NCBI GenBank assembly: GCA_028356125.1
Contig: JAOMTZ010000001.1
Coordinates: 62,001-126,000 of the forward strand
From: Candidatus Poseidoniaceae archaeon
Lineage (GTDB): Archaea; Thermoplasmatota; Poseidoniia; Poseidoniales; Poseidoniaceae
Length of the DNA stretch: 64,000 bases
Direction: 5' to 3'
This document shows positions 3,467 through 7,653 of this stretch, in pieces. The notes below the pieces were generated by a model, which saw nothing but the letters and a program-made list of their open reading frames with translations, did not search any database and was not told the origin of the DNA. How positions within the stretch are numbered: the first letter of the stretch is position 1; each line of letters begins with the position of its first letter. The position numbers and the translations under genes are program-made.

Positions 3467-4126
3467 TCAGAAAATCGAATGAAAGGCCACAATGAGAAGT
3501 ACAATTAGGAAAACTCCAATTCTTAGACTCGAACCTGCAATGCGCATCATTCTCTCAACTCTTCTCAATCCGGTTAGTGCCTCTTTGTTATCTGGTTCGA
3601 TTAACAAAACTCGTTGATATGCCATCTCTGCTGTCTGAAGACGTTCTGATTTTAATCCAACATCATTTTGGGGTTCTAACGAAGTTTCTGCTAGCAACAT
3701 CAAACTAGGGATGTGATCCTCATCAAATGATAATATCCTAAATAATCGATCAGCGATATTTCGAACACTCATCTGAGCATGAGATGCCAATTCGTTCCAT
3801 AAGGCAATGACATATTTATCGCGAAACTCACCATTGTAGAGTTCTGTTGCTAGCTGATAATCAATTTGCTTAGATCTCTCATACATTTCATCTGCTTGTA
3901 AGAAAAGTCCCTGTTCCATTTTTTCTGTAGCAATATGTAGATGATTTCTAACTAATTTATCAGTATCTTGAGTGTAGTTATTTTGGACAGAGTTTTCAAT
4001 TTGGGTATTTATGTCACCCATGATTACCGAGTCCTGAACATTTGTGTTTGATTGTGTTGGAATGGGAATCCATTCTGAACCACTCCAAATCATTTTGCCA
4101 TCAGGGCTTAGAACCGAATCAGTCAT
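3467..4126 (-). CDS. C-terminally anchored protein with SPDGK/QDSV module and TPR-like helices
   Basis: A 219-residue protein. The start chosen is ATG 4126 because GGAAGGAGA lies just upstream; a longer frame to 4192 would overlap the lipoprotein gene. Residues 7-40 form a compact module: SPDGKMIWSGSEWIPIP, then QDSVIMGD. The same module opens the otherwise unrelated protein at 6385. The middle is helical, with a TPR-like pair near 165-190 (AEMAYQRVLLIEPDNKEAL). Residues 202-218 form one membrane helix at the extreme C-terminus, so the bulk probably faces the cytoplasm. It lies 48 nt downstream of the lipoprotein gene on the same strand and may be cotranscribed with it. Function unknown; a scaffold role is inference. 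Confidence 0.8.
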   Translation of the reverse strand: MTDSVLSPDGKMIWSGSEWIPIPTQSNTNVQDSVIMGDINTQIENSVQNNYTQDTDKLVRNHLHIATEKMEQGLFLQADEMYERSKQIDYQLATELYNGEFRDKYVIALWNELASHAQMSVRNIADRLFRILSFDEDHIPSLMLLAETSLEPQNDVGLKSERLQTAEMAYQRVLLIEPDNKEALTGLRRVERMMRIAGSSLRIGVFLIVLLIVAFHSIF

Positions 4127-4173: not shown

Positions 4174-6246
4174 TTATTCGACACGGCGGCAAAGTGCCAC
4201 TATTACTAGCATAGATAGAGTGCTAAAAATTGTCAATCCAGGCAATAGAGCCGGACTTTCATCAGTATAACCTCCTCCCCAATCATGGTAAAGTTTGACA
4301 GTTGGTCTTTCATTGCCATCTTCATAATCAGTGTATACAACAATGGTATCTCCAGCGTCAAGGTAATCATTGCCATTCATATCATAATAATCGAATACCC
4401 AATTATTACCCATATCGTCTGTACTTTCACCAGATTGTATTTGAGATAAATCAAATGACACATGCAAGGTAAATTCTTCTTCACCATTGTCATTATATTC
4501 TGTAAAACCAAGATCTAGTCTGAATTCATCAAGATGATTTTGGAAATTCATTTCATCTTCGATTATGAACGAATATGGACTCATCCCCTTATACGTGCAA
4601 TAATTACAATTGCTAGCCTCTGCGACAATTGATTGACTCTCATCTTCACCATACGCTAGTGAACGCTTGAACCAGAATTCTGTTCCTGATTCTTTATCCC
4701 AACCATCCCACATTTCTAGTGTCTCTGAAAGAACGAAATACAGATATTCGTCATCCATCATGACTTGTGATAGATTCGTAGTGGTTTCACATGAATCAGT
4801 TGATTCTACGTATACCGCTATTGTCGTGTAACCAAGATTTGTGCATTGCAAATAGTCATTAGCAATTTGTGTATCTTCATCAATTCCGGACGTACAATCG
4901 GCTACTCCATCATTAATTGCAGCAAAAGATATCGTGGTAGTTCCTTCATCACAGTAATACATAGATATGTGTTCAGAGACATTAAGAGATGCAGTAATTA
5001 GAGAATCTCCTTCTATTCGCAAGGTATGGAAAATTGGAGTTCCTGAAGATGAATAAGACCCAATCCTTTTTGTCGTGCTAAAACCATTATTCCAAAAATA
5101 ATCACCTTCAACATCGTCCTCAAATGTGTGAATCATATCACTACTTGGATATTTGTCACCACACCATTCTGGAAGAACGACTATTGGAGTACTTTCTATT
5201 GAGGAATTAATTTCATCCTCGCTTACAATCTGGTTTGCAGGGATATTGTAGGATAGTTCACAATTCCAAACATATTTCGACGCCTGATAGTTTGTTTCTA
5301 CCAATAATGGGGATGCTGCTGGCGGATAATCATCAGACACTTCCACAGTTATTTCATCATCATCCAATATAAAAATTGATGACACTGTATTCTCAAATTC
5401 AGCGCCGAGGCCTTCCGAATCTACCGCCTCTGCAATGAAATTAACCATCTGTAGATTTTCATCGAAGTTGATGTAAATTATTCCTTCTTCGTTAGATGCC
5501 GATATAGTTTGATAACCATCTTCAACGGTCATAGTCCATTCTAATTCTGCAAATTCTAAATCATCTGGGAATAATGTTTTTTGTCTACCATCTGCAAGTA
5601 TTGCATCAATCTCTTCTTGAGTTACGCCTTCATCAGTACCATCTTGACAATGTACCAATCCATCGTTGACCCAATCAATTGGGATGTCATATTCCTCTTC
5701 ATCGCAAGTAAAATAGGGATCCATAGAGATGTCGTCTCCGTTTCCTTTCTTGATTGCAGCATTCAGTAAATTGTTAGAATCGCCAATTTCATCATTAACT
5801 AAATACCACTCATCTTCAGAATAAACGTTGATTACATCTCCTTTCTGTTTTACTTGATAATTACCATAATCCATCCCGTTTAATTTATATTTGTATGTAT
5901 AACTTATCGATTGGTCCTCGGAATCATACATTTCGATAATTGTTACTTCTGTGCTAATTGAGTCACCTTCAATCGTGGAATCGGTTTTCATTACCATTTT
6001 TACCCCGTATGTTTCACCGCCGGATCTTCTATTGTCTAGATCTGTGACCTGAGTAAGTGCTGCATTTTCTAATTCAGTTTGTGCAGCAGGCATCACACAT
6101 GAACCATCATCTTCATCGGCATCTGGATTATAATTTACTGCATCTGAATCTGTGCAGTCTGAAATTATTTCGTCATCGTCTCCAAAACATCCAGCTAAAG
6201 ATGTCGAAATGAGTAGGCACGCTACTAGGGCATGGATTGGCTTCAT
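4174..6246 (-). CDS. Large lipoprotein with C-terminal membrane segment
   Basis: A 690-residue exported protein. The N-terminus MKPIHALVACLLISTSLAGC has a lipobox (LAGC, lipid-modifiable Cys20). Just after it comes the acidic motif CTDSDAVNYNPDADEDDGSC, a short Cys-bounded motif reminiscent of small Ca-binding or spacer repeats in secreted proteins. The rest is acidic and rich in Asp, Glu, Thr and Tyr with scattered Cys residues. Near the C-terminus a hydrophobic stretch (LLPGLTIFSTLSMLVIVALC) is followed by Arg-Arg, which resembles a C-terminal sorting or anchor signal. It could thus be held at both ends. It is divergent from the EF-hand/Tudor-like gene at 6385. No enzyme motif is seen. Confidence 0.85.
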   Translation of the reverse strand: MKPIHALVACLLISTSLAGCFGDDDEIISDCTDSDAVNYNPDADEDDGSCVMPAAQTELENAALTQVTDLDNRRSGGETYGVKMVMKTDSTIEGDSISTEVTIIEMYDSEDQSISYTYKYKLNGMDYGNYQVKQKGDVINVYSEDEWYLVNDEIGDSNNLLNAAIKKGNGDDISMDPYFTCDEEEYDIPIDWVNDGLVHCQDGTDEGVTQEEIDAILADGRQKTLFPDDLEFAELEWTMTVEDGYQTISASNEEGIIYINFDENLQMVNFIAEAVDSEGLGAEFENTVSSIFILDDDEITVEVSDDYPPAASPLLVETNYQASKYVWNCELSYNIPANQIVSEDEINSSIESTPIVVLPEWCGDKYPSSDMIHTFEDDVEGDYFWNNGFSTTKRIGSYSSSGTPIFHTLRIEGDSLITASLNVSEHISMYYCDEGTTTISFAAINDGVADCTSGIDEDTQIANDYLQCTNLGYTTIAVYVESTDSCETTTNLSQVMMDDEYLYFVLSETLEMWDGWDKESGTEFWFKRSLAYGEDESQSIVAEASNCNYCTYKGMSPYSFIIEDEMNFQNHLDEFRLDLGFTEYNDNGEEEFTLHVSFDLSQIQSGESTDDMGNNWVFDYYDMNGNDYLDAGDTIVVYTDYEDGNERPTVKLYHDWGGGYTDESPALLPGLTIFSTLSMLVIVALCRRVE

Positions 6247-6384
6247 GGCTAACCGAAGTGTTGGCAGTCAATAAGTGCACTGATGAAGGCATAACTCAAG
6301 ATGCTCCTGATGGAGTATACAATCCTCAAACTGCTGAAGAATGATTTGCGATTAATTGATAGTTTTAGACTACAAGCGCAAACT

Positions 6385-7653
6385 ATGTCCGACCCTGTAA
6401 TGAGCCCTGATGGCAAATTTATGTGGACGGGAGATGAATGGGTACCGGCACCACCTTCTTCCAAGGGTAACAATATCAGTATGCAGGATTCTGTTATCGG
6501 TGGAGATGTAGTAAGTAACACGGTGATTAACAATGACCCTGCAACAGTTACTGCAGCTGTTATTACCGCATTACAGCAGTTGGGTGTACTTGGAGATAAT
6601 ACTCCGCACCAAGCCCCACCGACTCCCGAAATTGAACTGCCTCAATCCTTCCAAGTTGGAGACCACGTTGAGTACAACAGTCCAACAAATGCTCGATGGC
6701 TAAATCGATGTAAAGTAGTAGCCATTAATGATGACGGAACCTACAAAGTGGAAGTCCCTAAAGACACAATGATTGAAACTAAATTAGCCGTTGTAATTGG
6801 GACATCACCAGGATCTATCCGCCCAGCCAGTATACCCTTCAAACAAGGAGATAGAGTGTTCGTTAATTGGAAAAATCATGGTCACTATTTCCCTGGCAAA
6901 ATCGCCAGCGAAAACTCAGATTTTACATTCAACATTCATTTTGATGATGGAGACGTAGAGTACAATGTAGAATGGGGAAGGATTGAACCTCTAAATGAAG
7001 AGTCAAAAGAAGTTCAGGATTATATCGAAAACGAATCTCAAGAGGAAAGAGAACTTATCGAGGCTTTCCAAGTTTTTGACACCGACAATAGCGGCACTAT
7101 TTCTGCAGGAGAATATTTCAGAATCCTTACTGAAATGGGTGATGATCCAATATCAATAGAGGATGTGATGCAAGAATTTAACGAAATGGGAATTGGATTA
7201 AATTCAGAAATCGACTATCTTTCACTTGCTAAATTGATGCTTGGTTCTGATGATTCTGAGATGACGCAACCCAAACCTGAAGTCGTTATTCGTGATGCTA
7301 GAGTTTCAGAGGGAATTCTAAGAGGCTATGCGTATGCTCATCCAAAATTGGGTGAAGGCAAGATCAAGTCTTCTGCCATTCAATCTATCACATACGATGC
7401 TAGGGCAACCGCTCGAGTTGAAACAAGGAACACGATGTATGTAGTTGGACCAACAGGGTGGACTGAAAGGCCTTCTGACCACCCATTCAACAATCCATAT
7501 TCTCAAGGTATGCAAATTAAAGTTGAATGGAAAGGGAGTTGGTGGGATGCAATTATCAGAGAGATTAAAGGAGATTCATATCTAATTCACTACGTTGGAT
7601 TTGATTCAAGTTGGGATGAGTGGGTAGGTAACTCACGAATCAAATTAGAATGA
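6385..7653 (+). CDS. EF-hand protein with Tudor-like and chromo-barrel-like domains
   Basis: A 422-residue soluble protein; the start is ATG 6385 because the shared N-terminal module begins there (an earlier in-frame ATG at 6301 adds an unrelated stretch). Residues 7-41 carry SPDGKFMWTGDEWVPAP plus QDSVIGGD, as in the protein at 3467. Residues 90-125 and 152-203 look like small Tudor-type barrels (GDHVEY, GDRVFVNW ending with an acidic DDGD). Residues 232-243 are a canonical EF-hand loop, DTDNSGTISAGE; the second helix-loop-helix is degenerate. Residues 372-421 match the Tudor-knot or chromo-barrel pattern (VEWKGSWWDAIIREIKGDSY, then HYVGFDSSWDEWV). No signal peptide or membrane segment. Calcium binding is likely; the ligand of the barrels is unknown. 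Confidence 0.85.
   Translation: MSDPVMSPDGKFMWTGDEWVPAPPSSKGNNISMQDSVIGGDVVSNTVINNDPATVTAAVITALQQLGVLGDNTPHQAPPTPEIELPQSFQVGDHVEYNSPTNARWLNRCKVVAINDDGTYKVEVPKDTMIETKLAVVIGTSPGSIRPASIPFKQGDRVFVNWKNHGHYFPGKIASENSDFTFNIHFDDGDVEYNVEWGRIEPLNEESKEVQDYIENESQEERELIEAFQVFDTDNSGTISAGEYFRILTEMGDDPISIEDVMQEFNEMGIGLNSEIDYLSLAKLMLGSDDSEMTQPKPEVVIRDARVSEGILRGYAYAHPKLGEGKIKSSAIQSITYDARATARVETRNTMYVVGPTGWTERPSDHPFNNPYSQGMQIKVEWKGSWWDAIIREIKGDSYLIHYVGFDSSWDEWVGNSRIKLE

Follow-up and report, generated by a model that had tools for sequence, protein, structure and literature searches.

Kaur, Iyer, Subramanian and Aravind (2018) described chromo-like domains in bacteria that are secreted, that conserve their cage residues and that in some cases are fused to EF-hands, TPR or additional SH3 domains; they reported such domains as rare in euryarchaea (PMC5906684). 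Two other described systems bear on the locus analysed here: in B. subtilis the soluble SPFH protein YdjI recruits the ESCRT-III-like protein PspA to the membrane (PMC8581546), and ESCRT loci of archaea contain SPFH-coiled-coil-zinc-ribbon proteins (PMC11188069). Families of calcium-binding domains mark subgroups of the Poseidoniales according to the sections of one report considered here, and those same sections name no Tudor architecture (PMC9258230). A literature search found nothing joining Poseidoniales with Tudor domains. Our gene lies in a stretch of 64,000 nucleotides (the window) from a 1.55-Mb genome of Ca. Poseidoniales (Marine Group II), and its 422-residue product (6385..7653, + strand) resembles the secreted bacterial proteins in being prokaryotic and in having a Tudor-like chromo domain, cage aromatics and an EF-hand. 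It differs from them in that it is archaeal and lacks a signal peptide, has two Tudor-type and two further barrels as well as an SPDGK/zinc-ribbon module, and in genus g2 stands behind an SPFH-coiled coil. Fusions of EF-hands with chromo-like domains have a precedent in the secreted bacterial proteins (PMC5906684), so the combination is of a known kind; this protein stands apart in being cytosolic, in its four barrels, in the swap of the N-terminal module with a zinc ribbon and in the SPFH fusion. Our leading reading, held tentatively, is that the protein acts in the cytosol of Poseidoniales as an adaptor, recognising peptides (probably methylated ones) on an SPFH scaffold.

The gene starts at ATG 6385 and stops at 7651-7653; there is an alternative ATG upstream at 6301, and the later one is preferred because the relatives align from it (M-x-D/E-P..SPDGK). 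No signal peptide or transmembrane helix was found in the 422-residue protein (maximum 19-residue hydropathy 1.27; N-terminus MSDPVMSPDGK), which is acidic, with a net charge of -32. The dN/dS of the gene was 0.095 against the copy in L065 (91% identity) and 0.108 against that in L066 (88% identity), indicating that the protein is under purifying selection, and since the family is also conserved across the order, the open reading frame and its domains are not due to chance. The family is patchy, confined to Ca. Poseidoniales and common within that order. Relatives that carry a name are uncultured Ca. Poseidoniales and Thalassarchaeaceae. With L110_07 as query, the Tudor-EF core was found in 71 of the 167 genomes of the window's family code (a wider count, 92/171 genomes, takes in genomes in which only the N-terminal module matched), the Tudor-knot in 61/293 genomes of the order, and a single partial Tudor match was found outside Poseidoniales among 390 genomes of the phylum. 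The earlier note on this DNA, made from the letters alone, had called the combination unusual for an archaeon, which is fair given the reported rarity (PMC5906684), but within Poseidoniales the gene is common. As it is absent from the near-complete, one-contig genome G034, we regard it as an accessory gene. At L028/L074 and L013/L062, copies coded f1 (the window's family) group with f2 copies (Thalassarchaeaceae-type), up to near identity, and this grouping reflects either lateral transfer or misbinned contigs.

An AlphaFold2 model built on the family alignment, of medium confidence (pLDDT 70, pTM 0.35) with residues 26-81 at low confidence, has four small barrels in all, at residues ~93-148, 155-202, 299-354 and 377-421; that at 299-354 is an all-beta barrel and the others are five-stranded. 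The earlier note had placed two small barrels ahead of a C-terminal Tudor-knot, and while such barrels are real, there are three of them. Foldseek ranked the tandem Agenet protein AGDP3 and the triple Tudor of SETDB1 at the top for the model (probability 1.00); whole-chain TM-scores were low because the arrangement of the domains is unreliably predicted.

The N-terminal module (consensus SPDGKxMWxGxEWIPAPP plus QDSVxxGDV) consists of a short two-strand part carrying the motif SPDGKFMWTGDEWVPA (6403..6450, + strand; S7, P8, D9, G10, K11, W14, G16 and W19 invariant) and a linker and helix, QDSVxxGDVxxNTxxNND...VTxAVxxAL (6484..6585, + strand), which is conserved in 34/34 rows and modelled as a low-confidence loop plus a helix at residues 52-65. 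The SPDGK module was also found in otherwise unrelated proteins of these archaea, one in L003 and one in the window (3470-4126, - strand), and it looks like an N-terminal domain in general use among them. In the window protein in question, of 219 residues, the SPDGK/QDSV module is followed by a helical part with a weak likeness to TPR and then by a tail anchor, a transmembrane helix at the C-terminus. A zinc ribbon takes the place of the SPDGK motif in L110_07 (Zn_Ribbon_1 at its cut-off), and G121, G122 and G123 match this query from its first residues. Exchangeable in this way, the SPDGK/QDSV module may serve to join the protein to larger assemblies.

Barrel 1 (6640..6828, + strand) is SH3/Tudor-like, with five strands within residues 94-147 and a weak SH3_15 match, and is missing in L056 and L059. 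Barrel 2 (6838..6999, + strand) is a Tudor of the KDM4A/53BP1/Crb2 type, its profile matching KDM4A, PHF20L1 and 53BP1 in the PDB. Tudor_3 matches all 34 family members there (E 0.01 or better); the window copy, at 23.7 bits, is just below the curated cut-off of 25.8, and other members exceed it (L032, 30.7 bits; L110_07, 41.4 bits). Its conserved residues are W162, Y/F168-169, F186 and D188, with W162, F186 and D188 each kept in at least 33/34 members. Barrel 2 shares with the double-Tudor readers KDM4A and 53BP1 a W..(Y/F)..FDDG Tudor barrel beside another small barrel; unlike them, the archaeal protein has Asp at the position of the 53BP1 cage Tyr that follows FDDG, and has no BRCT or JmjC domain. 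Barrel 4 (7273..7464, + strand; HPKLGEG...TS...YVVGPTGW, six strands within residues 299-354) belongs to an unnamed family, for which Pfam, NCBIfam and PDB profile searches returned no relative and a weak match to phrog_2063 was the only one. In several genera barrel 4 and the Tudor-knot are separated by an additional domain (YYTVQGAGTSKCNGTYLP...LRWRMGNGDQWWYLA...), e.g., in L032:1039-2634 (-) and L109:7837-9444 (+), for which Pfam gave no match. L110_07 and L119_04 lack both barrel 4 and the Tudor-knot. Two Tudor-knots are present in L026, and in several genomes the domain has been lost by a stop or frameshift, a frameshifted remnant persisting in L016. The sole part found in every member is the Tudor adjoining the EF-hand pair. 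Since the Tudor-knot is lost in several genomes and barrel 1 in others, none of the other barrels is indispensable, which counts against the adaptor reading.

The EF-hand pair (7003..7254, + strand) is calmodulin-like: EF-hand_7 matches 34/34 members, the model has helices at residues 208-229, 241-250, 258-268 and 278-287, and the family profile matched calmodulin with an E-value of 6e-20. In the window copy, EF-hand_1 scored 26.3 bits against a Pfam cut-off of 25.4 and EF-hand_6 was likewise over its cut-off, while a match to XopAW (NCBIfam), far below cut-off, was set aside as mere EF-hand resemblance. Loop 1, DTDNSGTISAGE (7078..7113, + strand), has D1, D3, S5, T7, I8 and E12 in the window copy and is canonical, as the earlier note had recognised. 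Loop 2, GIGLNSEIDYLS (7189..7224, + strand), is non-canonical, with Gly at position 1 and Ser at position 12; it begins with Gly in 49/51 copies, so that the first ligand is missing. Among 52 distinct copies, loop 1 keeps D1, G6 and I8 without exception, but its position 12 varies: 24 copies have Glu, 24 have Lys and 4 have some other residue. Lys at position 12 of an EF loop should abolish canonical Ca2+ binding. Together with the state of loop 2, this means that calcium coupling, which had been suggested as a property of the protein, is not a family trait. Glu12 is kept in 15/15 members of the window's clade, and its distribution needs at least three changes on a tree built without the loop columns; judged by its residues, calcium coupling may be claimed at most for that clade. 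Covariation of Glu2 with Lys12 in loop 1 was considered and dropped, as there were too few independent changes. The pair thus resembles calmodulin in its paired helix-loop-helix and in the canonical loop 1 of the window copy, and departs from it in the degenerate loop 2 and in a loop 1 that Lys12 disrupts in roughly half of the members. In the mechanism that we propose, the pair would pack beside the Tudor as a protein-binding module, with Ca2+ possible in the window's clade and its site lost in other clades.

The C-terminus (7504..7644, + strand) is a Tudor-knot (chromo-barrel) with cage positions of the MRG type. Here the earlier note had seen the Tudor-knot pattern, and both profiles and model bear it out: Tudor-knot scored 28.1 bits (cut-off 20.8) and Agenet 28.8 bits (cut-off 27) in Pfam, the Tudor-knot profile (PF11717) matches 31/34 family members, and the model has strands at residues 377-382, 385-395, 398-403, 411-415 and 419-421. 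Significant matches to the chromo-barrel fold came from the PDB as well, where the Tudor-knot profile found EAF3, MRG701, MRG15 and MRG2 (best E-value 7e-9). The outcome that the earlier note had named as refuting its proposal, a C-terminal region without any significant match by profile or structure, therefore did not occur. W387, Y403, F406 and W410 are aromatic in 31/31 members, whereas neighbouring surface positions vary. These four align with Y26, Y46, W49 and W53 of MRG15, which we take to be its cage. The likeness to MRG/EAF3 thus covers the HYxGFDSSWDEWV core, the four cage aromatics and the five-stranded barrel; unlike those proteins, the archaeal one has no MRG domain and no histone partner was found for it.

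Given the conservation of the cage and the likeness to EAF3/MRG15 and KDM4A/53BP1, reading of methyl-lysine or methyl-arginine by the barrels is plausible, and binding of a modified protein, one of the ligands named in the earlier note, is our best guess. The Tudor-type barrels would hold short peptides, most likely by methylated Lys/Arg side chains in their aromatic cages. Among the 31 genomes searched, archaeal histones (PF00808), SET and HU (PF00216) were each found in 0/31 over the curated cut-offs, while positive controls matched in named genomes. The 31 are MAGs, 55-97% complete, but we regard an absence from every one of them as informative. With no SET methyltransferase found in these genomes, the presumed mark is left without a candidate writer, and in other archaea non-SET enzymes methylate lysine (PMC4639711, PMC8927968).

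The missing SET enzyme also favours the strongest competitor to a peptide-recognising adaptor, which we consider somewhat less probable: a purely structural scaffold whose modules bind unmodified partners, its cages being fold determinants and no methyl mark being read. Many aromatics of Tudor barrels do double as core residues, and the modules of this family are freely gained, lost and swapped, as would suit a scaffold. What speaks against it is that the cage aromatics are kept in 31/31 members while adjacent surface positions vary, and that the acidic cage partner D188 of barrel 2 is invariant.

The membrane part of the proposed adaptor derives from genus g2, in which one open reading frame of 862 residues (L024; also L023 and L033) has the Tudor/EF module as its C-terminal half. 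Standalone proteins, 400-420 residues long and mostly ending in a zinc ribbon, align with the N-terminal half of this fusion, so the Tudor/EF module sits C-terminal to the SPFH-coiled-coil where the standalone homologues have that ribbon. Band_7 (Pfam) scored 24.0 against a cut-off of 23.6 in the standalone relative L099 and was below cut-off in L024; AlphaFold2 and Foldseek on the SPFH part matched stomatin, HflK/C, prohibitin, flotillin and an archaeal stomatin core, confirming an SPFH fold for the g2-type protein at the level of a predicted structure. In two other genomes, L109 and L110, the Tudor/EF gene lies next to an SPFH gene with a 175-residue companion, in divergent orientation; this companion, for which no Pfam family was found, also precedes the g2 fusion L113. 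SPFH coiled-coil proteins were located at L109:5694-7425 (-), L110:4925-6671 (-), L111:5418-7197 (+), L112:13128-14874 (-) and L113:4977-8087 (-); in 5/5 of these loci a helical gene of ~175 residues precedes, several of the SPFH proteins have a C-terminal zinc ribbon, and the SPFH gene and the ~175-residue gene form a conserved two-gene unit in Poseidoniales. An SPFH link was thus seen in 3 of ~14 distinct gene neighbourhoods, which, by a rough estimate and not a formal test, is far above the chance level for one or two SPFH genes per ~1,800-gene genome. The limited number of linked neighbourhoods counts against the adaptor reading, as does the window's own lineage, where the gene has a TauE/SafE permease beside it and the SPFH gene is far away; the medium confidence of the model is a further point against it.

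The fusion and the adjacency suggest to us that the Tudor/EF protein serves the SPFH scaffold as an exchangeable accessory. It would act as a cytosolic multidomain adaptor, the assembly that it joins being in particular an SPFH (stomatin/flotillin-like) membrane scaffold. Such an arrangement would resemble the YdjI/PspA-type and archaeal SPFH-zinc-ribbon systems (PMC8581546, PMC11188069) in its SPFH domain, coiled coil and C-terminal accessory domain, and would differ in that the Tudor/EF module replaces the C-terminal zinc ribbon in genus g2. A more specific version, which we think unlikely as a whole, is that methyl-reading Tudor barrels, which in some clades the EF-hand pair would switch, bring modified proteins to the SPFH membrane scaffold; if true, prokaryotes would use chromo-like reading within the cell and apart from chromatin. 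Chromo-like domains have been described as rare or absent in archaea and as secreted in bacteria (PMC5906684). A cytosolic family that is widespread in an abundant group of marine archaea, keeps its methyl-lysine cage positions, has a calcium site in partial decay and is fused to an SPFH scaffold in one genus offers a concrete, testable place to study such readers without chromatin.

Set against the SPFH-linked adaptor, a calcium-responsive reader of chromatin or nucleic acid, in which Ca2+ on the EF-hand alters binding of the barrels to DNA, RNA or modified DNA-bound proteins, appears improbable. It would account for the canonical loop 1 of the window copy, with its clade-wide Glu12, and for the resemblance of the barrels to chromatin readers. 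It is at odds with Lys12 in so many copies and with the first ligand missing from loop 2, the strong negative charge makes binding of nucleic acid less likely, and bacterial chromo-like domains work outside chromatin (PMC5906684). Chromatin, which the earlier note had raised through the eukaryotic Tudor-knot proteins, is thus an unlikely partner, the histone, SET and HU searches of the 31 genomes having yielded none.

Least likely of all is a patchy, conflict-type accessory gene (defence or counter-defence) moving between lineages, which would suit the patchy distribution, the several unrelated neighbourhoods, the truncated copies and the tree positions that cross family codes, but which is opposed by strong purifying selection and by searches in which PADLOC gave no match to a defence system, phages gave no match and no viral contig held a confirmed relative, so that defence and viral or phage origins were both rejected. 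Over 26 loci compared, the context of the window (TauE/SafE permease, aminotransferase-like gene) recurs in near relatives only. The permease was dropped as a conserved operon partner, since it lies 3' of the gene in near relatives alone (L065, L118), the neighbours elsewhere being different. On the other side, divergent to the Tudor/EF gene, the window encodes a 690-residue protein (4177-6246, - strand) whose N-terminus is of the lipoprotein type (LISTSLAGCFG); it also has a DADEDDGSC-type repeat and, at its C-terminus, a transmembrane segment.
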